A stretch of 64,000 nt of DNA from Marine Group II euryarchaeote MED-G38 (lineage in GTDB: Archaea; Thermoplasmatota; Poseidoniia; Poseidoniales; Thalassarchaeaceae): assembly GCA_002457145.1 (NCBI GenBank), contig NTJP01000010.1:1-64000 (forward strand). Reading direction: 5' to 3'. Both the position numbers and the translations under genes were made by a program. Of this stretch, positions 29,785 through 44,008 are shown piece after piece. Under the pieces are notes generated by a model. The model did not search any database and was not told where the DNA came from. It saw only the letters and a program-made list of their open reading frames with translations. Positions within the stretch are counted from its first letter, which is position 1; each line of letters opens with the position of its first letter.

Positions 29785-31833
29785 TTAAGCCTCAATCCTT
29801 AGTATACTATTACATTCTGAGCATGGCATTCTCAAAGGTCTTACATTAGATTGAACTAGATTGGACTTACCACAAGAAGGGCATTTTACATGTGGTCCTC
29901 CGATTTTTTTACTTATTTTTTCAATCGTACCTGATGATGGTGAGACTAAAGATATTGGGAAGACTAGTAAAATACTTGTTGAAACAATTCCCAAAACAAT
30001 TTGCATTGGCAAACCCATCCAATATATAGAAAATGCTAGAGAACCTAGGACCAGAATCGTTATCATTGTAGGGACTCTAGCTCTTCTTTTAGTTAGGGCC
30101 AACCCAATCATAAGAGAAATTGATAGTGCTAAAACAGACATCATAGCAGAAACTAGTGGACTAAATAAAAATGAATTGGGTGGCACGAATTCAATTCTAA
30201 ATTCAGTATCCGAATCAATATCTTTATCTTCAACAGTAATTACTTCCATAATAATCCATCTTCTTAGCTCATAATTCATTTCATCAGCATATATATCACC
30301 TAATCCCGTTAACATGTTTGTTTTCATTCCGATAAGTAATGAGATTTCCGTCCAATATTTCTCTGCAGATGGTCTAACAAAATTTTCCACCAGTAGTTGC
30401 CTTTGTCCCTCCTCAACTCTATAAGATGATTCTATAGTGATTATAATTTCTTCAGAGCTAAAAGCTCTTGATTTTCCCATGTTAATATCTATTGTGGTAG
30501 GTCCTAGTTCAACAGGGTCAACACCAATTATTGATTCTATTTCTAAAAACAATCCATTTGCAAAGAATGACTTTAAGTCAGATTTAGATCCTATCAGATG
30601 GTTCTGTAAAGCCAATATTTCTGAATCATCTACCTTGCCATTATGTTTCTCAGAAGATTTTATTGAATTTGAATATTCATTAAGATTTTTCCACCAACTA
30701 TTCGAATCTAAGGTATTATTTCCAATGTTATCTAATCCCCATCTAATCCATTGAGACATTGAACCATCAAATTCTATTGACACCTGTCGTTCTACTAAAT
30801 TCCCTTTGAATATTGCATCAACATTAATATCTAACTCTGCTCCTCCAGTCCTTAATGGTTCATTTTCTGGGTACCAATCATTTTGTCCGTCACCTCCTCC
30901 AATTGTTATGTCATGGGTTTTGTTCAATTCTAATATTAACCCTGGTTGAGGTACCAATTCAAAATCAAATCTAATTTCACCATTTAGGTTATCTGGTATC
31001 TCCCATACAAAAGTGACTTCCACACCTTCTTCTCTAAGAATTGCAATAGGACTATCACTTATCTCTAAATTCTGAACTTTAGCCTTACCTTCTGATCCAG
31101 ACCACATCCTATCTTCAAATCCTGATTTAATCAAAACTGGAAAATATGCTAAATTTCCCAAAACACTTGCTTCATTCATAATTATTTCTAATAAAGGTAG
31201 TTTAACACTCATGTGAGCATTATATTCTTCTGAGCCCCAAAGAAATTTAACTCCAGTATTTTCATCTCCTGGGTTAGAAAATATTAAATTTTGAACATTT
31301 AGTGTTATCTCTATCACATCTCCTTCTGATAATGTTCCTTGGCCAACATTGACTGGTATCTGGATTTCTCCTTGTCCTGTGAACATTAATTCAGGCATAC
31401 TTAATGTCCCTTGGTAGGTATTACCTCCTACTTTTACTTCTAATGTAGCATTGATTGTAAAGCCAGCAGCTTCTTGTAATTCATAAGGAATCACAAAGTT
31501 CCAAATTTCTGCTGAATATTCTCCCTCAGTTCTCCAGATAACTTCCCATGTTCCTATCTTTACCTCTCCTCCTATTGATGAGGTTACAATTTCTTCCACA
31601 GGGTCTTGTTCCAAATCAGAATAAAACGGAGAAATGAACCCATCGTCAGAATCTCCTAATAAAAATAAATCAAATTCTGTTTGTGAACAACACTGTTGCG
31701 ATTCTTCTCCGTTTACACTCATTGGAGACAGTATAATCACGATTAAAAGTGCGCCCAAAAATAAAGCATAGCCTCTTTCACGAGTTATCATTTGTTCGCT
31801 GATTGTTATCACGTCCTTGAATGCGCCGCTCAC
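29785..31833 (-). CDS. Secreted-loop membrane protein with C-terminal zinc ribbon
   Basis: 682 residues. An N-terminal signal/anchor (ALFLGALLIVIILSPMSVNG) is followed by about 500 extracellular residues rich in beta strands. Near the C terminus are three hydrophobic helices (SPLVSAMMSVLALSISLMIGLAL, MITILVLGSLAFSIYWMG, MQIVLGIVSTSILLVFPISL) and a cytoplasmic zinc ribbon (VKCPSCGKSNLV ... MPCSECNSIL). The layout resembles other large membrane proteins here: outside beta domains with a short zinc-ribbon tail inside. Not recognised as a named family. The start could be ATG 31833 or 31791. Its stop lies 5 bases from archease, convergently. Confidence 0.6.
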   Translation of the reverse strand: MSGAFKDVITISEQMITRERGYALFLGALLIVIILSPMSVNGEESQQCCSQTEFDLFLLGDSDDGFISPFYSDLEQDPVEEIVTSSIGGEVKIGTWEVIWRTEGEYSAEIWNFVIPYELQEAAGFTINATLEVKVGGNTYQGTLSMPELMFTGQGEIQIPVNVGQGTLSEGDVIEITLNVQNLIFSNPGDENTGVKFLWGSEEYNAHMSVKLPLLEIIMNEASVLGNLAYFPVLIKSGFEDRMWSGSEGKAKVQNLEISDSPIAILREEGVEVTFVWEIPDNLNGEIRFDFELVPQPGLILELNKTHDITIGGGDGQNDWYPENEPLRTGGAELDINVDAIFKGNLVERQVSIEFDGSMSQWIRWGLDNIGNNTLDSNSWWKNLNEYSNSIKSSEKHNGKVDDSEILALQNHLIGSKSDLKSFFANGLFLEIESIIGVDPVELGPTTIDINMGKSRAFSSEEIIITIESSYRVEEGQRQLLVENFVRPSAEKYWTEISLLIGMKTNMLTGLGDIYADEMNYELRRWIIMEVITVEDKDIDSDTEFRIEFVPPNSFLFSPLVSAMMSVLALSISLMIGLALTKRRARVPTMITILVLGSLAFSIYWMGLPMQIVLGIVSTSILLVFPISLVSPSSGTIEKISKKIGGPHVKCPSCGKSNLVQSNVRPLRMPCSECNSILRIEA

Positions 31834-34666: not shown

Positions 34667-36421
34667 TCAAATCAAGGGATCTGACGCTACTTTATTTATC
34701 TCAGTAATACTAAATTCTCCTCCATGGATCGGAGTTTTTAGGCCATATCGTTCGCTCACTAGAGGGTCTATTTCTCCAAATTGACCAATTTCAATATTTC
34801 GAACTATTATTTTAGCACCTCTTCCAAAAAGCCAAGGAGATTTTTGTTCTTTAATTGGTTTATATTTAACATCCTCACTAAGTATTCCTAAATCCCTAAT
34901 AATAGATTGAACATATCCTTTGGCCGAAGTAAACCCACCTCCTACTTCTGCACATGACCAAGAAAATGAGTAACTATTCTTAGAATCATTAACTACATGT
35001 CCAAGTTCATAGATACGTTGTGGTAACTCTTGATGTCTATTTGCAGCTAATATCTGTAATAATGATGGAAGTATATACTGTCTAAGTATTGTGTGTTCTG
35101 AACTAATTGGATTAGAAATACTCGTTACTAACCCCTTTTTCTCCCATCTAGTTCTTTCAAATTGATCTCGTTCATTTGATAGAGTCAAACTTTGTATTTC
35201 CTGTAATCCTAGTGCACGTAAACTCGCTCTAATTCTCCTATTCATCTGGGCAGATTTTAGCGGCAATGCATCTAGATGTATCGAAGACATCTGTTCGGGT
35301 AGATTATTGTATCCAAATCCTATTGCTATATCCTCAACAATATCTATTGGGTGCATTATGTCACTTCTCCATCTGGGCATTGAAATAATATGCTCAGTCT
35401 CTCCAATAACACAATCAGACCATCTTTCAGCTTTATTGGGTCCGTCAGTAACTGTCCTAGATTCCAGCAATTGCCCCCCCATTTTACTTATAGATTCTTT
35501 AATTTCTAAATTACTTAATCTCATACCAAGTATTTTCTCTATTAACTTATCCGGGATTCTATGATTTATCGCAGTTCCATCGGGCGTAATTGATGATTTT
35601 TTATCAGTAAATTTTATCTCTAAACTTTCAATAGTTCCATTTCTTTCTCGAAGTGCCAAGCAAATTAACAATAGACATGCTTCACATGATCTTTTATCCC
35701 ATCCTGTTACATCGATAAAAAAATCTTTAGTTTTACTTGTAACTGTGGTTTTTTGACCATTAATAATGGGAGGAAATGAGACAACATCATTATTTGAATC
35801 TAATATCACTGGAAATGTATCTAAGTCTTTCATAAGATGAGAATATTCAATTCCTTTTGGATGCTTTTCAAGGATTTCTGTAATACTCATATCAGAATTC
35901 TCAGATAAAGGTATAAATTTAAACGACGAATTAACTGTCTTGACTTTAAATGGTGGTTTTATTTTTTCTAAATCGTGAACTCCTATTGAGGATAATTTTC
36001 TTTTTCTACCGAGAGTTAGATGTAATTTTTCTTGATGATCCATTAATGATTGGATAAATTTTTCTTTTTCTTCGATATTATTTCCAGTTTTTACATCTCG
36101 GACAATAGCTGACATTATAACCGGGCGTACATTTTCGAGACTCTTTTCTACATATACAACGCAATTTCCTTTTTTTACATTTATTATTGTATCCTCTTTC
36201 TTATCTCCCAAGAAAGATCGCGCAGCTTTTGCCAAAGTCTCATGACTTAACAAGTCAGGCCTATCAGGAAAAACCTCTATATCTATTCTCTCTTCATTAT
36301 TGCTTTCTACAGGACAACCAATTTCAGTTAACCAATTATCCCATATCTTTGATTTATGTTTGATACCATTTATTTCTTGGATATACCTTAATAATTCATG
36401 TTCTAGAGTAATCGTTGGCAT
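34667..36421 (-). CDS. pheT: Phenylalanine--tRNA ligase beta subunit (archaeal type)
   Basis: 584 residues, the shorter archaeal/eukaryotic beta chain without the bacterial N-terminal tRNA-binding fusion. It starts MPTITLEHELLRYI with the RIDIEVFPDRPDLLSHETLAKAARSF segment. The B3/B4 region contains ERNGTIESLEIKF, and the B5 domain contains IPDKLIEKILGMRLSN and DIMHPIDIVEDIAIGFGYNN. The C-terminal catalytic-like domain has EHTILRQYILPSLLQILAANRHQ and the terminal GEIDPLVSERYGL. It forms a heterotetramer with PheS, which is not in this window. A GAGGTT Shine-Dalgarno precedes the ATG. The upstream GltB-like gene on the same strand ends about 10 bases before it. Confidence 0.94.
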   Translation of the reverse strand: MPTITLEHELLRYIQEINGIKHKSKIWDNWLTEIGCPVESNNEERIDIEVFPDRPDLLSHETLAKAARSFLGDKKEDTIINVKKGNCVVYVEKSLENVRPVIMSAIVRDVKTGNNIEEKEKFIQSLMDHQEKLHLTLGRKRKLSSIGVHDLEKIKPPFKVKTVNSSFKFIPLSENSDMSITEILEKHPKGIEYSHLMKDLDTFPVILDSNNDVVSFPPIINGQKTTVTSKTKDFFIDVTGWDKRSCEACLLLICLALRERNGTIESLEIKFTDKKSSITPDGTAINHRIPDKLIEKILGMRLSNLEIKESISKMGGQLLESRTVTDGPNKAERWSDCVIGETEHIISMPRWRSDIMHPIDIVEDIAIGFGYNNLPEQMSSIHLDALPLKSAQMNRRIRASLRALGLQEIQSLTLSNERDQFERTRWEKKGLVTSISNPISSEHTILRQYILPSLLQILAANRHQELPQRIYELGHVVNDSKNSYSFSWSCAEVGGGFTSAKGYVQSIIRDLGILSEDVKYKPIKEQKSPWLFGRGAKIIVRNIEIGQFGEIDPLVSERYGLKTPIHGGEFSITEINKVASDPLI

Positions 36422-36430
36422 TTTGAAACC

Positions 36431-37975
36431 TCAATTTCCCAGCCACATAGGTAAAGATTTGTTATATCCTATCAATCGAAGGCCTGAGATTGCTGCTGTA
36501 TCGAAACTATTGGCCCTTAAGTTCCTTCTACCTATTTTTTCCAATCCATCAATACCAAGTTCATACATCCATTCTTTTAATTCTAATTCTTTAACTTGTA
36601 TGTTTTCATTAATCTTCGAATCTTCTGCTGGACCTATTATTCCTATGCATCCCGAAGCTACGGAAATAAGCATATCCTCTACTGTTGGCTGCTTATCAAT
36701 TTTCATGAAAACTTTTAGATTGTTTTCTACAAAACTCCAAGACTTAATTGCCAAACCGATTGTAGGCAGACAGGCAGCAACTCTGCTTCCTCCAGGAGCT
36801 GATGCATCAACTATCGCACCATCTAATTTAAGCTCAATAACTAATCTAAACAAATCTTTAACTCTGTTTACATGATTCTTCAGGAATACCATTGATGATT
36901 CTTTCATTCTACTGGCCAGTGATACTATTATCGCTTCTAATTCAGCGTCATTAAGATATGGCATTTGGGCTAAATCAATTATTATTCCTGCACATAAGTC
37001 GATATGTTCCATAGAATTTACTAAATTCTCTTCATTGATTTCCAAAAAATCTATTTCTCTAGGATTTTTAAATACTAATGCAGGTTGATTCGATGCATAA
37101 CTGCCTTTCCACTTTTGAGCAGTTTCACACTCAATAAGCCATGGAACTTTGAATAAAATACCTTCAGAATCTGGATTTTTAGGAAGAATTAATGTGTAAT
37201 TATCTACTGTCTTATGAGTAGGTATTCTCTCGTTATTATCCGGTACTAAAATTATATTTTCTAATCCTTCGGTTATATTCTTTATCGGCTTATTAATATC
37301 TTGTTCTTGTTTACTGATTGCGGATTCTAATACTAATGCATCTTCATTAATCGTTAATCCAATGGGAGTTAAATATTCTTTGCAGTATTCTATTTCTTCT
37401 TCGTTTATGGAACGCATTAAAACATCTTCACCAGGAGGCGGGCAACTTCCTGCTATTATCAACTTCCCTCCGGCCATACCAAGGCCAGGTTCCGAGCCAG
37501 TGGATCCTAAAATTATCCCAACTCCACCATTCATTTTCGATCCTAACTTATCTCCGGCATGGCCTCTGACAATGATGGTGCCTCCTCTCATCTTTCCTCC
37601 AGCCTCGTTTCCTACAGAACCCTGAACTATAATTACTCCACCTTCCATCTGATAGCCAATTTTATCTCCTACATCTTTCTCAACTATTATCTTACCAGAC
37701 TTTTGAAAGGCACCTAACATAGATGTTGCCGAACCCTGTAAGGTGAATATTCCTCCTCTATTCATTGCACCAGCACATTCTCCTAAATCTCCTAATAGTA
37801 ATACCTTTGATTTCTTCGGAAGGTGAGTTATTGCTCCAATTTCTCCATTTCTGGGTTTTTCATCTTGGTCTCTACCCCAACCTATTTTGACAAGTAAATC
37901 TTTTTTCATAGCTTCAATAAGTAATTTATCAAGCTGTCTATTAAGTTTAATACTTTTTTCTGTGATTTCGCGCAT
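36431..37975 (-). CDS. Glutamate-synthase-like protein: GXGXG domain fused to FMN-barrel-like domain
   Basis: 514 residues. The N-terminal part (about 40-190) is a GXGXG beta-helix of the GltB domain-3/GlxC/FwdC type, with repeats such as GGIFTLQGSATSMLG, GGVIIVQGSVGNEAGGKM, GGTIIVRGHAGDKLGSKM and GGKLIIAGSCPPPGED. The C-terminal part (about 270-510) resembles the FMN-binding barrel of glutamate synthase (DGAIVDASAPGGSRVAACLP, GCIGIIGPAE) and ends like GltB tails (LGIDGLEKIGRRNLR). The order is reversed relative to GltB, and the C-C-C iron-sulfur cluster motif is missing. The gene has a strong GAGGTGA Shine-Dalgarno and is divergent from GAPDH. It may not be a working synthase. Confidence 0.65.
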   Translation of the reverse strand: MREITEKSIKLNRQLDKLLIEAMKKDLLVKIGWGRDQDEKPRNGEIGAITHLPKKSKVLLLGDLGECAGAMNRGGIFTLQGSATSMLGAFQKSGKIIVEKDVGDKIGYQMEGGVIIVQGSVGNEAGGKMRGGTIIVRGHAGDKLGSKMNGGVGIILGSTGSEPGLGMAGGKLIIAGSCPPPGEDVLMRSINEEEIEYCKEYLTPIGLTINEDALVLESAISKQEQDINKPIKNITEGLENIILVPDNNERIPTHKTVDNYTLILPKNPDSEGILFKVPWLIECETAQKWKGSYASNQPALVFKNPREIDFLEINEENLVNSMEHIDLCAGIIIDLAQMPYLNDAELEAIIVSLASRMKESSMVFLKNHVNRVKDLFRLVIELKLDGAIVDASAPGGSRVAACLPTIGLAIKSWSFVENNLKVFMKIDKQPTVEDMLISVASGCIGIIGPAEDSKINENIQVKELELKEWMYELGIDGLEKIGRRNLRANSFDTAAISGLRLIGYNKSLPMWLGN

Positions 37976-38134
37976 TTATCAATTCACCTCTTGTTTAGTC
38001 ATCTACTCGCATGACGTCCGAGAATAGACTTAGAAAAAAGGATATCCTATAATTAAATTATTTTTTTGAGGTTATGTTGATAGAGTTTATTCAATTCCAG
38101 TTAATTGAGAGACCTTCGGGGGCGTGATATAAAA

Positions 38135-39169
38135 ATGATAAAAGTAGCTATAAATGGTTATGGGACTATAGGAAAAAGAGTTGCAGATGCAGTAGATGCT
38201 CAAGATGATATGGAAGTAATAGGAGTTACTAAAACAGGTCCTAATTTCGGCTGCCAACTTGCTGTAAAAAAACAATATCCTCTTTATTGTACATCGGATG
38301 AAGAAGAAAAAATAAATCTTTTTTCAGAACAAGGTTACATATGTCATGGTGGAATTACTAAATTATTAGAATTAGCTGATATCGTTGTTGATTGCTCTCC
38401 AGGAAAAATGGGTAAAATGAATCTTGAGAAATACAAGGGTGCTGGAATTAAACATATTTTTCAAGGAGGAGAGAAACATGAGTTAACCGGACTCTCATAT
38501 ACATCATGCGCAAACCATAAAGCTGCCCTTAATGCTAATGGAGCACGCGTAGTGTCATGTAACACAACAGGACTTTCTCGAACCTTAGTCCCTTTACATG
38601 ATAATTGTGAGGGTATAAGCGTAGAATGTACCATGATAAGGAGGGCCGCCGATCCCGGAGATTCCCAACGAGGTCCGATTAATGCAATCAAACCAGTATT
38701 GAAAGTACCTAGTCACCATGGAATTGATGTTATGACAGTTAAACCTGAAATTAAAATCAATAGTCTTGCAGTAGCCGTCCCAACAACTTTAATGCACGTC
38801 CATTCCTTAGTAGTAGAGTTACCTCCTAATCATGGACTAACTACTGAATCAGTGATTAAACTTTGGAAAGAACAACCTAGAGTCATTGTTATGAACGGTA
38901 CTGAGAATCGTATACCAACAACTGCAGAAGTAATGGAATTGTCTAGAGATATTGGTAGGAAATGGGGTGATCTGCATGAAATATTTGTATGGGAGGAAGC
39001 TGTTTCATTGAAGGGTAATAAATTATATTATTTTCAAGCTGTACACCAAGAAAGTGACGTTATACCAGAGAATATTGACTGTATTAGGGCTTTGATGGGA
39101 ACAAATTCTGATTGGAAAAATTCTGTTTCAATTACTGATGAGGCCATTTCAAGATATAATGGTATTTAA
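38135..39169 (+). CDS. gap: Glyceraldehyde-3-phosphate dehydrogenase, archaeal phosphorylating type
   Basis: 344-residue type II GAPDH. The Rossmann start VAINGYGTIGKRVADAV and VDCSPGKMGK identify the archaeal family. The catalytic cysteine lies in ARVVSCNTTGLSRTL, and the conserved histidine region is MRRAADPGD-like (IRRAADPGDSQRGP) with TTLMHVHSLVVEL. The reaction is reversible oxidation of G3P to 1,3-bisphosphoglycerate, used in gluconeogenesis or glycolysis. The ATG at 38135 is chosen over a TTG ten codons upstream. GGGGGCGTGAT is the Shine-Dalgarno-like stretch. Upstream AT-rich DNA (AATTAAATTATTTTTTT) is a plausible promoter in the 158-base divergent gap. Confidence 0.94.
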   Translation: MIKVAINGYGTIGKRVADAVDAQDDMEVIGVTKTGPNFGCQLAVKKQYPLYCTSDEEEKINLFSEQGYICHGGITKLLELADIVVDCSPGKMGKMNLEKYKGAGIKHIFQGGEKHELTGLSYTSCANHKAALNANGARVVSCNTTGLSRTLVPLHDNCEGISVECTMIRRAADPGDSQRGPINAIKPVLKVPSHHGIDVMTVKPEIKINSLAVAVPTTLMHVHSLVVELPPNHGLTTESVIKLWKEQPRVIVMNGTENRIPTTAEVMELSRDIGRKWGDLHEIFVWEEAVSLKGNKLYYFQAVHQESDVIPENIDCIRALMGTNSDWKNSVSITDEAISRYNGI

Positions 39170-39232: not shown

Positions 39233-42200
39233 ATGTCACCTTCTAAATCGGCAATGTTGATTGTCGCATTAATTATTTTTTCTCCATTTTCTGTATTTAC
39301 AGAAGCATCTATTTCAGATTCGAATTATCTAGAAATAACAGATTCAGAGAACTATGATGGGAACTGGTTCGTTATTCAAAATGCGACATTAAATACATAC
39401 GCTTTGTCAGAATCTTCAGGATACATACATTCTCCATTAGGCTCTTTTGATCCTCTTGAGGGTTTCATCCCTCTAGGTCCGGAAAATTTTATCGATTTTA
39501 ATGCCTTTTTAAAAACAGGAATGGCAATTATTCAATCTAAGTCTTCTGACATGACTTCATTAACGGATGCCCTTAATAAAGAAAATAATATTTCAATACT
39601 TGATTCTATTCCTGATGATTCATTAATAATTAGGATTTCAGGCGAAGATAAATTTCAAAATTTCTTAAAAATCAGTAAATTTTCTGAAGTAAGATGGATC
39701 GGAGAACTACCGATAGCATGGAAACTTTCTAAAGATTTAATTTCCAATACTTTAGAGAGTAACAATCTTATTGATGTCATTATCTCGCCTACTAATGATC
39801 TTAATATTGATCAATTAAATAGGTTAAATTATGACTTATCGAAATTTTCTTCTATAAATTCAAAAAGTAAAATATGCAGTCTTTCCTTATGTCAAATCAA
39901 AGATCTAAACCCTTCCGTACTACCTTTGATTGCATCGGATGAAAGGATAATTAAGATAGAATATGCTCCAAATTTAATCCCTCATAATAATAATGCGCGT
40001 GAACTTTCTGGTATTGATAATGCTTTATTTTTATCGGATAATATACTCAACGGAACTGGTGAGGTAATTGCTATTTCGGATACTGGACTTGATTCCGACC
40101 ATGGTGACTTTGGAGGAAGACTTAGAAATCCAGTTTACAATGACTTTGGTCCTGATAATTCTGGTGCTGATGCAAACAGCGGCCATGGAACTCATATTGC
40201 AGCAACACTATTGGGAGATGGTTCTGGAGATTCAAAAGCCACTGGAATGGTCCCAGAGTCAACATTTATTTTCTATCAATTAGAAGTTGATAGCTCCGGA
40301 ATATTCGCACGTTGGGACTCTTTGTACTCTATGTTTTCTCATGCATGGCAAAGAGATGCAAAAATACAAACTAATAGTTGGGGGTCATCAAACCTATTGG
40401 GAGAATACACTTCAGATTCTCATTCTGCAGATTCTTTCGTTCAGGACCATCCAAAATTCTTAGTTTTATTTTCGGCCGGTAATTCAGGTTCTGAGGGGGT
40501 AAGCTCTCCTGGAACTGCAAAAAATGTTTTGACTATAGGAGCATCCACGACTGGCGCTTACTCTAGTCAAGAAGTAGGTCAAGTTTACAATAGCTCTTCT
40601 TCTAGTTATACTCAGGATGGACGCATCAAACCAGATCTAGTCGCACCAGGAGTAATGATTTGCTCTGCAAGAGCTCAAGAGGCACAATTTGCATCTGGAG
40701 AATCTTGCTCCGAAGAGATTCATGAAGAAGGTGAGGATCCACTTTATATGACTTTGAGTGGTTCCTCTATGGCAACTTCTGTTGCTGCAGGCGCTTCGAC
40801 TATGACAAGACAATTTCTTCGTGAAGAGATGAACATCTCAGAACCTCGTTCTGATTTAATAAAAGCCATTTTAATTAATGGGGCCATGGATCTGGGTGAT
40901 TCTGACATACCCAATCCAATGGAAGGATGGGGGCAAATAAATGTTAGTCAAAGCCTATATCCCAAATCTGGAGATCAAAATTCAAATGTTCACATAGACT
41001 ACTCACGTTCTCTTCTTCCCGGACACAGTTTTGTATATACTTTTGATGTAACCGAAGATTCTAAGTTGGATGCTACATTAGTTTGGAATGATAAAGAAGG
41101 ATCTGCAACAGGTAATCAAACTCATGCTCGTCTTATAAATGATTTAGATTTAAAAATAACTTCTCCTTCAGGTTTGGTGTATAATGGTAATAATTTTATG
41201 TCTGGATTAAGTGTATCTGGAGATTATACAGATACAATAAATAATGTTGAGAGGGTAAAAATAGATTCTCTAGAGATTGGTATTTGGATGGTTGAAGTTG
41301 GAAACGCTAGAGGAAATGCACAGGATTATTCTTTAGTAATATCTGCAATTGCCGAAGAAACCTCAGAGTCAGATTTATCAGTTATCCCTGATTCTATATC
41401 TTCAATTAATGCCTATCCTCTTCAAGGTGATTTGATATCTATAAATACCAAATGGTCTAATAGAGCATCTTTACCAACAGGAGATTATTCCATCTCTGTA
41501 AAAGACTTATTTGATGGTACAATAATCAAAACATCACAAAGAAATTCTTTAGAAGGTGGTCAGATCGATTCACTTTCTTTCACACATTCTTTTGAAACTA
41601 CAGGGTTACATATTTTACAACTTAAATTAGATTACCTCTCAGAAGTAGATGAATTAAATGATGAATCTTTTGGTACCAATAATAATATTTTTAATTTTTC
41701 ATTCAATGTATCTCAAATAGGAGTTAGATTGACTCCATTATTACCAGATAGTTCCGTTCCAAACTCATACGAAGAATTAATACTAGCAAAAATACGTGAT
41801 TTCGATCCACGAACTCAAACATCAATTTTATTCGAACTTGAATTAAAAAATGAAGGAACATCTCAAATAACCGTCGATTTGACAGTTTCTCCAGTTCAAA
41901 TCATTAGTGAACAGGGGATTTTGAATCAACCACAAGACGAATGGTCAAAAGTTCTTAGTGAAAGTGGTCCATGGGTACTAAATCCTAGTGGAGATGATGG
42001 CGATAGAACAATTATATCTCTGAATTTATCAAACCTAGATGCCGACTTAACGAATAATGCACTAATTCGTTATTCATTACCCGGAGATTATGTGACAGAC
42101 CTAGTCTTATTTGACAAGAATTCACCTACTATCACTCATTCCATAAGACTCACTACAGTTGTCGATAGGGTAGAAGGACTGTTTACTGTAATTGCAGGAG

Positions 42201-44008
42201 AAAATGATTTGGGGGCAATTCCGGGTGACTACGCTACATTCTCTCTTTCCATAAGGAATGTAGGAAATGGACCAACACAATATACCATTAGTTGTGAATC
42301 ACCAAATCGATGGATTATCCACATAGGTAATTCCGAATCTTCAGAACTAACACTAGACCCATTAAGTAGGTTGCAATATTTACCACTTTTTATTAATGTC
42401 AAAGTTCCTAAGTCTTTAGACTTTCAACCTGCCGCAGGAGTAACTGAACAAGTTACTTGTATCACAATGTCTGTATTTGATTCGTCAATATATACATTAG
42501 AATTAGCCACAGTCGAAGTCTTAGAAAGTAAACTATTTTCTACAGAACTAATCGATTCTGAAGAATCTCCTCTTGGGCCATTAGCAATATCTCCAGATCG
42601 CCCTGTGATTAATGGTAATACTGTTTCAACTAATCTAGTTATAACAAATTTAGGAAACGTCATTATTAATTTTGATATTCAGGTTTATTCTTCTCTAAAT
42701 ACTTGGCCTATACAAATTTATGAAAGTCAAGATAATATCCCAATTAATGTTGTTGATTTTATCTCCATTTCTATCTTTCCGGGAGATAGTTCTAATATAG
42801 TAATCAATACTATCGTACCACTTTCATCACAAAAAGGAGATATCAATACTATAACTATTAAAACGACTTCAGATGAAAATATTTTGGTTAATAACGGAAC
42901 GAGATTAATTGTAAAGGAAATAGCTACCTTGGAACTATCTGAAACAGTTAATATGAACGTCGCTCTTGGTAATCCTGGAGTTTCTGAAATAAATATAAAA
43001 AATACCGGTAATGTGCCGCTAGTAATTAGTCTAAGTATAGGTAGTATTTCTCAAAATTGGGAAGTAGGTTTTTTATCCGGTAATTTCTTTACTATGGATA
43101 TGAATAGAGAGGCAATTATAATCGTTAGCGCCTTTTTACCAGAAAATATTAATCCTGGGATTTTGCAAGATAAGATACCTATTATCGTTCAAGCAAATAC
43201 TCCCAATCAAGAATCAATTATATTCACAGTTGAGGTTGCTGTAACAGTACTTCCATCAGTATGGTTAACATTAGATTCTGAGTTAACTCAAGTAGAAGAT
43301 ATAGAATCTAATGGAAATTCAAATTTTGCAGTTATTTTATCAAATAAGGGTAATAGCCAAGCCAATGTAAATATTAGCCTATCAAACTTAGAAAATTGGG
43401 AAATTACTTCTGACAAACAATCAATTGATAATTTGAAACCTGGTACTGAAGTTTCAATATTGGTCAGTGCCTCTCCTAATTCAGGTTCTTCTAATGGCTT
43501 AATGGAGTTTACTATTGTGGCAGATTCACCTTCTTCTGAAGAATTATTTGTCACTACCAGTCCTTTGACGCTTAAAGTTAGTAAGGCCAGAGCAGATAAT
43601 ACCGGCGGCATTAGTGGGATATTTCAAAATTTAGGAATCCCTTCATGGATTCTACCAATGTTATTCCTGTCGCTACTAGGAAGTGTTATTTACATTGGAT
43701 TAAATTTAAGACGTAATTCATCAATGTCTAGACCAGATGAAGAACTGATTCCAAAAGGCTCTGCATTATTATCTGGTTCTAATTCTGAACGTCGAATCGC
43801 CGCTCTTGATACATCATCTGCAGGAGAAGTACTTTCCGGAGGAGTTTCTGAGGATGAGATTAAAGCAGCCCTCGCATCTTCATTACCATCTCTAACAAAA
43901 ACACCTGAAGGTGCCCCGCCATTGCCCTTAAGTGGCTTACCAGAGGGATGGACTATGGATCAATGGGTTGTATATGGACAAATGTGGTGGGACCAAAATA
44001 AACCATGA
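39233..44008 (+). CDS. Large secreted cell-anchored subtilisin-like protease
   Basis: 1591 residues. A signal peptide (MLIVALIIFSPFSVFTEA) precedes an approximately 240-residue proregion. The S8 catalytic domain has Asp283 (ISDTGLDSDHGDF), His318 (SGHGTHIAATLLG), oxyanion Asn in LFSAGNSGS, and Ser512 (LSGSSMATSVAAG). A P-domain/jelly-roll-like region follows, then a long series of CARDB/Ig-like beta domains (LVITNLGNVIINFDIQ, INIKNTGNVPLVISLS, VILSNKGNSQANVNIS). A C-terminal membrane helix (IPSWILPMLFLSLLGSVIYI) leads to a cytoplasmic tail ending GLPEGWTMDQWVVYGQMWW. It probably digests extracellular protein at the cell surface. N-terminal region residues 30-250 may be a fused propeptide that is cleaved. 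Confidence 0.9.
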   Translation: MSPSKSAMLIVALIIFSPFSVFTEASISDSNYLEITDSENYDGNWFVIQNATLNTYALSESSGYIHSPLGSFDPLEGFIPLGPENFIDFNAFLKTGMAIIQSKSSDMTSLTDALNKENNISILDSIPDDSLIIRISGEDKFQNFLKISKFSEVRWIGELPIAWKLSKDLISNTLESNNLIDVIISPTNDLNIDQLNRLNYDLSKFSSINSKSKICSLSLCQIKDLNPSVLPLIASDERIIKIEYAPNLIPHNNNARELSGIDNALFLSDNILNGTGEVIAISDTGLDSDHGDFGGRLRNPVYNDFGPDNSGADANSGHGTHIAATLLGDGSGDSKATGMVPESTFIFYQLEVDSSGIFARWDSLYSMFSHAWQRDAKIQTNSWGSSNLLGEYTSDSHSADSFVQDHPKFLVLFSAGNSGSEGVSSPGTAKNVLTIGASTTGAYSSQEVGQVYNSSSSSYTQDGRIKPDLVAPGVMICSARAQEAQFASGESCSEEIHEEGEDPLYMTLSGSSMATSVAAGASTMTRQFLREEMNISEPRSDLIKAILINGAMDLGDSDIPNPMEGWGQINVSQSLYPKSGDQNSNVHIDYSRSLLPGHSFVYTFDVTEDSKLDATLVWNDKEGSATGNQTHARLINDLDLKITSPSGLVYNGNNFMSGLSVSGDYTDTINNVERVKIDSLEIGIWMVEVGNARGNAQDYSLVISAIAEETSESDLSVIPDSISSINAYPLQGDLISINTKWSNRASLPTGDYSISVKDLFDGTIIKTSQRNSLEGGQIDSLSFTHSFETTGLHILQLKLDYLSEVDELNDESFGTNNNIFNFSFNVSQIGVRLTPLLPDSSVPNSYEELILAKIRDFDPRTQTSILFELELKNEGTSQITVDLTVSPVQIISEQGILNQPQDEWSKVLSESGPWVLNPSGDDGDRTIISLNLSNLDADLTNNALIRYSLPGDYVTDLVLFDKNSPTITHSIRLTTVVDRVEGLFTVIAGENDLGAIPGDYATFSLSIRNVGNGPTQYTISCESPNRWIIHIGNSESSELTLDPLSRLQYLPLFINVKVPKSLDFQPAAGVTEQVTCITMSVFDSSIYTLELATVEVLESKLFSTELIDSEESPLGPLAISPDRPVINGNTVSTNLVITNLGNVIINFDIQVYSSLNTWPIQIYESQDNIPINVVDFISISIFPGDSSNIVINTIVPLSSQKGDINTITIKTTSDENILVNNGTRLIVKEIATLELSETVNMNVALGNPGVSEINIKNTGNVPLVISLSIGSISQNWEVGFLSGNFFTMDMNREAIIIVSAFLPENINPGILQDKIPIIVQANTPNQESIIFTVEVAVTVLPSVWLTLDSELTQVEDIESNGNSNFAVILSNKGNSQANVNISLSNLENWEITSDKQSIDNLKPGTEVSILVSASPNSGSSNGLMEFTIVADSPSSEELFVTTSPLTLKVSKARADNTGGISGIFQNLGIPSWILPMLFLSLLGSVIYIGLNLRRNSSMSRPDEELIPKGSALLSGSNSERRIAALDTSSAGEVLSGGVSEDEIKAALASSLPSLTKTPEGAPPLPLSGLPEGWTMDQWVVYGQMWWDQNKP

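Follow-up and report, generated by a model that had tools for sequence, protein, structure and literature searches.

A fused GXGXG–barrel protein of Marine Group II archaea as a probable pseudoenzyme derived from glutamate synthase

Introduction

Marine Group II has been described as the most abundant group of planktonic archaea in the surface ocean (PMC6461757). In the Marine Group II euryarchaeote MED-G38 (Poseidoniales, Thalassarchaeaceae), one gene encodes a protein with two domain types of glutamate synthase, a GXGXG beta-helix followed by an FMN-type barrel, and the question raised by this locus is what such a protein does. The original prediction, made from a 64,000-nucleotide stretch of contig NTJP01000010.1 (positions 1 to 64,000; hereafter, the window), noted that the barrel lacked Fe-S cysteines and that the domain order was reversed, and it offered three roles, namely, a scaffold, a new oxidoreductase, or an amidotransferase partner. 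The answer matters for genome interpretation, as a core gene that resembles glutamate synthase but is very probably not one likely misleads reconstructions of nitrogen assimilation. Here, we propose, with a probability of roughly 0.6, that the protein is a non-redox pseudoenzyme derived from glutamate synthase, with a scaffold or ligand-binding role. No description of this protein family was found in a literature search limited to open-licence papers.

Domain Content and Fold

The gene and the elements of its product lie on the minus strand of the window as follows:

36431..37975, minus strand: coding sequence of 514 amino acids, a GXGXG beta-helix and then a decayed FMN-type TIM barrel (open reading frame, homologues, AlphaFold)
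37817..37888, minus strand: N-terminal signature KIGWGRDQDEKPRNGEIGAITHLP, residues 30-53
37451..37822, minus strand: GXGXG domain (PF01493), residues 52-175 (Pfam and PDB sequence matches)
36434..37312, minus strand: decayed TIM barrel with C-terminal tail, residues 222-514 (fold, profile alignment)
36611..36628, minus strand: approximate site of the deleted Fe-S cysteine loop, residues 450-455 (alignment with intact barrels)
36443..36529, minus strand: C-terminal tail RRNLRANSFDTAAISGLRLIGYNKSLPMW, residues 483-511 (alignment)

The predicted N-terminal GXGXG domain was confirmed by PF01493, the sole Pfam match of the 514-aa protein, with E=1.2e-12 and a score of 48.3 bits (cut-off, 32.5). 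Within the overlapping signature KIGWGRDQDEKPRNGEIGAITHLP, I31, G32, P41, G44, and P53 were invariant across the order, and intact relatives carried GLxGQxxIAVGL at this place. The best PDB sequence matches of the domain were FwdC and then the GXGXG domains of glutamate synthase. FwdC (TIGR03122) was also its best NCBIfam match; however, the score of 61.5 bits was under half the family cut-off (130.65), and membership in that family was rejected. A barrel is absent from FwdC. In the Pfam searches, neither PF01645 nor a class II amidotransferase domain was found in the 514-aa protein, and the C-terminal half searched alone gave no match.

The second half was addressed by structure prediction and profile alignment. 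AlphaFold, run with 36 relatives, gave a full-length model with a pLDDT of 87.6 and a pTM of 0.86, and the C-terminal half modeled alone formed a TIM barrel (pLDDT 88.4). The Foldseek neighbors of this half were hydroxyacid oxidase and glycolate oxidase (both approximately 1e-9; glycolate oxidase, E=1.6e-9), followed by IMPDH (approximately 6e-6) and DHODH (approximately 1e-5), and the full-length model also matched glutamate synthase 7mfm (E=3.5e-4, 20% identity). Thus, the model places the C-terminal half in the FMN-linked oxidoreductase superfamily by its predicted TIM barrel fold. In hhalign, residues 219-514 aligned with glutamate-synthase barrels of Thermoplasmatota over 279 columns (probability 98.6, E=5e-16), and the same barrel profile reached 95.7-96.6 against two single archaeal barrels, with all of the controls (IMPDH, GDH, PheT, and five shuffled barrels) at noise; searched against PDB sequences, the barrel profile found nothing. 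When the last 60 residues were removed, the match dropped to a weak E=5e-4 over 212 collinear columns, still ahead of the unrelated controls (0.03 or worse), which indicates that the sequence link of the barrel to glutamate synthase depends to a large extent on the conserved tail. Two sets of bridging sequences, together with the fold, add support for the barrel origin despite this tail-dependent signal. The 471-aa proteins of f3 matched the query over approximately 470 residues (E down to 9e-28) and aligned with intact barrels at a probability of 99.8, and the whole-family profile aligned end to end with a 660-aa fused protein (L082) over 513 columns (probability 99.9). As judged from these alignments, the C-terminal barrel appears to be homologous to archaeal GltB2, and the FMN-barrel-like second domain of the original prediction, which would have fallen had this half failed to match the FMN-binding fold of glutamate synthase, is retained.

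Loss of the Catalytic Motifs

The motifs by which such barrels bind FMN, substrate, and the Fe-S cluster were compared across the alignment. Ordinary GltB2 proteins kept all of them: GEGG, GQGAKPGMGG, GGTGAS, the beta-7 Gly-Gly, and the cysteine loop. Intermediate states were observed in other lineages: f8 proteins possessed the cysteines and Gly-Gly and had lost GGTGAS, the fused proteins of f33 and f26 possessed the cysteines and had lost Gly-Gly, and the split f11 proteins (L202/L203) had lost the cysteines. In f7, one protein (L081) carried the cysteines and its neighbor did not (L197 and the split L168), which implies at least one separate cysteine loss. Both f3 and the order of the window lacked the segment with the GEGG and GQGAKPGMGG loops (approximately 95 residues in the order of the window); the GGTGAS loop was gone as well, as were the beta-7 Gly-Gly and the Fe-S cysteine loop. 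The tail LRAxxxxTAAxSGLRLxGYxRPLPxW was retained through this whole decay series; common to intact GltB2-like barrels, it is the best conserved stretch of the C-terminal half, and W511, R487, A488, A494, G498, R500, and G503 within it were invariant across the order.

Among the 44 aligned members of the order, the beta-7 position did not generally carry Gly-Gly (residues 427-429 were D/P/G, W/K/E, and S/A/Q), no relative in the order had regained GG at these residues, and the beta-8 loop was changed or deleted. The absence of Fe-S cysteines noted previously proved to be a deletion of the loop itself: the four cysteines of the C-terminal half are scattered with no cluster, and Cys443 in GCIGIIG is isolated and present in only 24 of the 44. 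Since the phosphate-site motifs are absent, we infer that the protein binds no flavin. A flavoprotein oxidoreductase that holds FMN or F420 at a changed site and passes electrons without an Fe-S cluster of its own would agree with the Foldseek neighbors, which are FMN enzymes and include several that lack Fe-S (glycolate oxidase, IPP isomerase 2); nevertheless, with the beta-7 Gly-Gly not the rule, the beta-8 and Fe-S loops altered or deleted, and the GEGG/GQGAKPGMGG segment missing, we consider it very improbable, and the new oxidoreductase among the three suggested roles is disfavored.

Domain Order and a Probable Route to Fusion

The reversed order holds relative to the single-chain GltB; however, it is not anomalous, as it equals the gene order of split enzymes. 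In N-methylglutamate synthase, GltB1, GltB3, and GltB2 correspond to mgsA, mgsB, and mgsC, with mgsB followed by mgsC (PMC6237917). Likewise, in other Thermoplasmatota a GXGXG gene is directly followed by a barrel gene (L080, L081), and the same pair lies behind HdrA-like and FrhB-like genes at three further loci (L083, L084, L199; names assigned by eye). Thus, a fusion would need no domain shuffling, and the domain order of the protein probably represents the operon order of split genes. As a separate observation, the barrel gene of the latter three operons includes a ferredoxin domain, and their gene content suggests a glutamate-synthase-like enzyme whose electron supply is linked to F420 or Hdr.

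The same fusion, with Fe-S-type cysteines still in place, was found in two other lineages. L082, from another lineage of Thermoplasmatota, encodes a single chain with both domains (PF01493, E=2.1e-13; PF01645, E=1.6e-48) and a CxxCxxC-type stretch; L196, the second case, also retains Fe-S-type cysteines (PF01645, 5e-11). L082 shares the fusion, the domain order, and the C-terminal tail with the window protein, whereas it still has Fe-S-type cysteines, matches PF01645 clearly, and is approximately 145 residues longer. MgsB-MgsC, the split GltB3 and GltB2, agree with the window protein in both domains and in their 5'-3' order; in contrast, the window protein is fused, its shortened barrel lacks the motifs for FMN, substrate, and Fe-S, and its gene has no GltB1 amidotransferase gene as a neighbor. 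GltB (PDB 1ea0, 7mfm) contains both domain types but in one chain of opposite order, together with an amidotransferase domain, FMN, and [3Fe-4S]; the window protein shares GXGXG with it and lacks PF01645 with GGTGAS and the beta-7 Gly-Gly as well as the [3Fe-4S] loop. A tree of the fused and concatenated proteins left single and repeated fusion, and likewise single and repeated cysteine loss, unseparated.

Relation to Glutamate Synthases

The window genome (G000) and its relatives were searched for separate glutamate synthase partners. In G000 the only PF01645 match was weak and lay in an IMPDH-like open reading frame, and most relatives had no such enzyme; a partner in the own genome was thus rejected. 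A split enzyme, with an 856-aa amidotransferase-GXGXG protein beside an intact barrel gene, was present in only 15 of the 59 relatives, compared with 55 of the 59 for the 514-aa protein. Glutamate dehydrogenase was present in 20 of 21 relatives; therefore, glutamate synthesis need not depend on the 514-aa protein. These distributions indicate that the protein is unlikely to be a glutamate synthase subunit. It could still be imagined as a noncatalytic subunit of glutamate synthase or of another glutamine amidotransferase complex in which ammonia is delivered to a separate catalytic barrel, given that both of its domains are glutamate synthase parts and that some relatives carry a second, decayed barrel beside the intact one in their split operon (L047). 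This reading is quite improbable in view of the scarcity of the amidotransferase, found in about a quarter of the relatives, and of the family-bearing genomes of f8, f7, f33, f11, and f3 g23, in which no glutamate-synthase-type amidotransferase was found, only weak partial matches in other proteins or none. The amidotransferase partner of the original prediction is accordingly disfavored.

Two further loci deserve mention. In some Thalassarchaeaceae, the operon at L047:528-6003 combines two barrels, one decayed (502 aa) and one intact (466 aa), with the 856-aa amidotransferase-GXGXG fusion. The decayed barrel is a separate, second pseudoenzyme candidate; descent of the 514-aa protein from it was rejected, as the profile alignment was at noise (probability 0.5). 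In addition, G057, a genome of the same order, has a complete bacterial-type GltB of 1499 aa (L050:2577-7076), possibly acquired by transfer.

Conservation, Selection, and the Preferred Reading

A homologue was found in 55 of the 59 relatives, the great majority full-length, and in all 24 of those that are at least 90% complete; the named relatives at 94% identity are Candidatus Thalassarchaeaceae, which places the window in Marine Group IIb or close to it. For the closest pair, dN/dS was approximately 0.05 and 0.07 in the two halves, and unsaturated pairs ranged from 0.02 to 0.06 in GXGXG and from 0.06 to 0.17 in the barrel. Both halves are thus under strong purifying selection.

The main rival to a scaffold or ligand-binding role is an enzyme remodeled after the loss of FMN and Fe-S, in which the empty barrel would have acquired new, non-redox catalysis such as lyase or isomerase chemistry. 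TIM barrels switch chemistry easily, selection on this barrel is strong, and D309, R483, R487, R500, and L403-P404 are invariant across the order. However, nearly all of the invariant residues of the C-terminal half lie in the tail and in structural turns, and the barrel itself has just four invariant positions, D309, G330, L403, and P404, and shows no conserved polar cluster resembling a catalytic center; we thus regard this alternative as unlikely.

Taken together, we favor the pseudoenzyme, and with it the scaffold among the roles first suggested. We propose that adjacent archaeal genes for domain 3 (GXGXG) and domain 2 (the FMN/Fe-S barrel) of glutamate synthase would have fused in operon order, and that the fused barrel would then have ceased to bind FMN and substrate and would have lost its Fe-S cluster. 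The beta-helix would pack on the emptied barrel within one chain, and the N-terminal loop (IGW..GE.G) and the C-terminal tail (LRA....TAA.SGLRL.GY.RPLP.W), both invariant, may form a putative surface to which a partner protein or a small ligand binds. Ligand binding by a barrel does not require the classical motifs, which counts against the pseudoenzyme reading. More tentatively, the protein may belong to a phylum-wide family of pseudoenzymes that decayed stepwise and that, in Poseidoniales, entered the core genome and took on a new non-redox function, possibly as a metabolite sensor or an assembly platform. If so, a natural series could be read from the intact split enzyme to the emptied fused scaffold, and the intermediates within one phylum would provide a testable example of a redox enzyme turning into a scaffold or sensor.

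Gene Neighborhood

Two genes flank the coding sequence in the window:

34667..36421, minus strand: pheT (Phe-tRNA synthetase beta), starting 9 nt downstream
38105..39169, plus strand: type II GAPDH, divergent neighbor, context only

No partner or ligand was found, and the context outside the order gave no role. In the order, pheT lay directly downstream at 94 of the 95 loci, with a gap that was most often 9 nt and sometimes longer or overlapping when gene starts were taken from the longest open reading frame. This arrangement makes cotranscription probable and would suit an accessory factor that is linked to translation and works with PheT; nevertheless, the RnhB, GluRS, GAPDH, subtilase, and adenylate kinase neighbors are about as fixed as pheT, f3, which belongs to the same class, lacks the link, and pheS is located elsewhere, which renders such a factor scarcely credible. 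Outside the order the neighbors differ (pheT, idi-GGPP synthase, lipA, aspS, AlaX-like), and at the f3 loci idi and a prenyl synthase, or lipA, adjoin the gene (names by eye). As most flanking genes are frozen within the order, synteny is weak evidence of a shared role, and adjacency to GAPDH or pheT was rejected as a functional clue, in agreement with the earlier view that the divergent GAPDH suggests no role.

Two other proteins of the neighborhood were observed. A 682-aa protein (window 29785-31833), which apparently has membrane segments and ends in CxxC...CxxC at its C terminus, gave no match in a Pfam search and is conserved behind GluRS in most loci. On the other side, a 1591-aa subtilase-family protein (window 39233-44008) adjoins GAPDH throughout the order.
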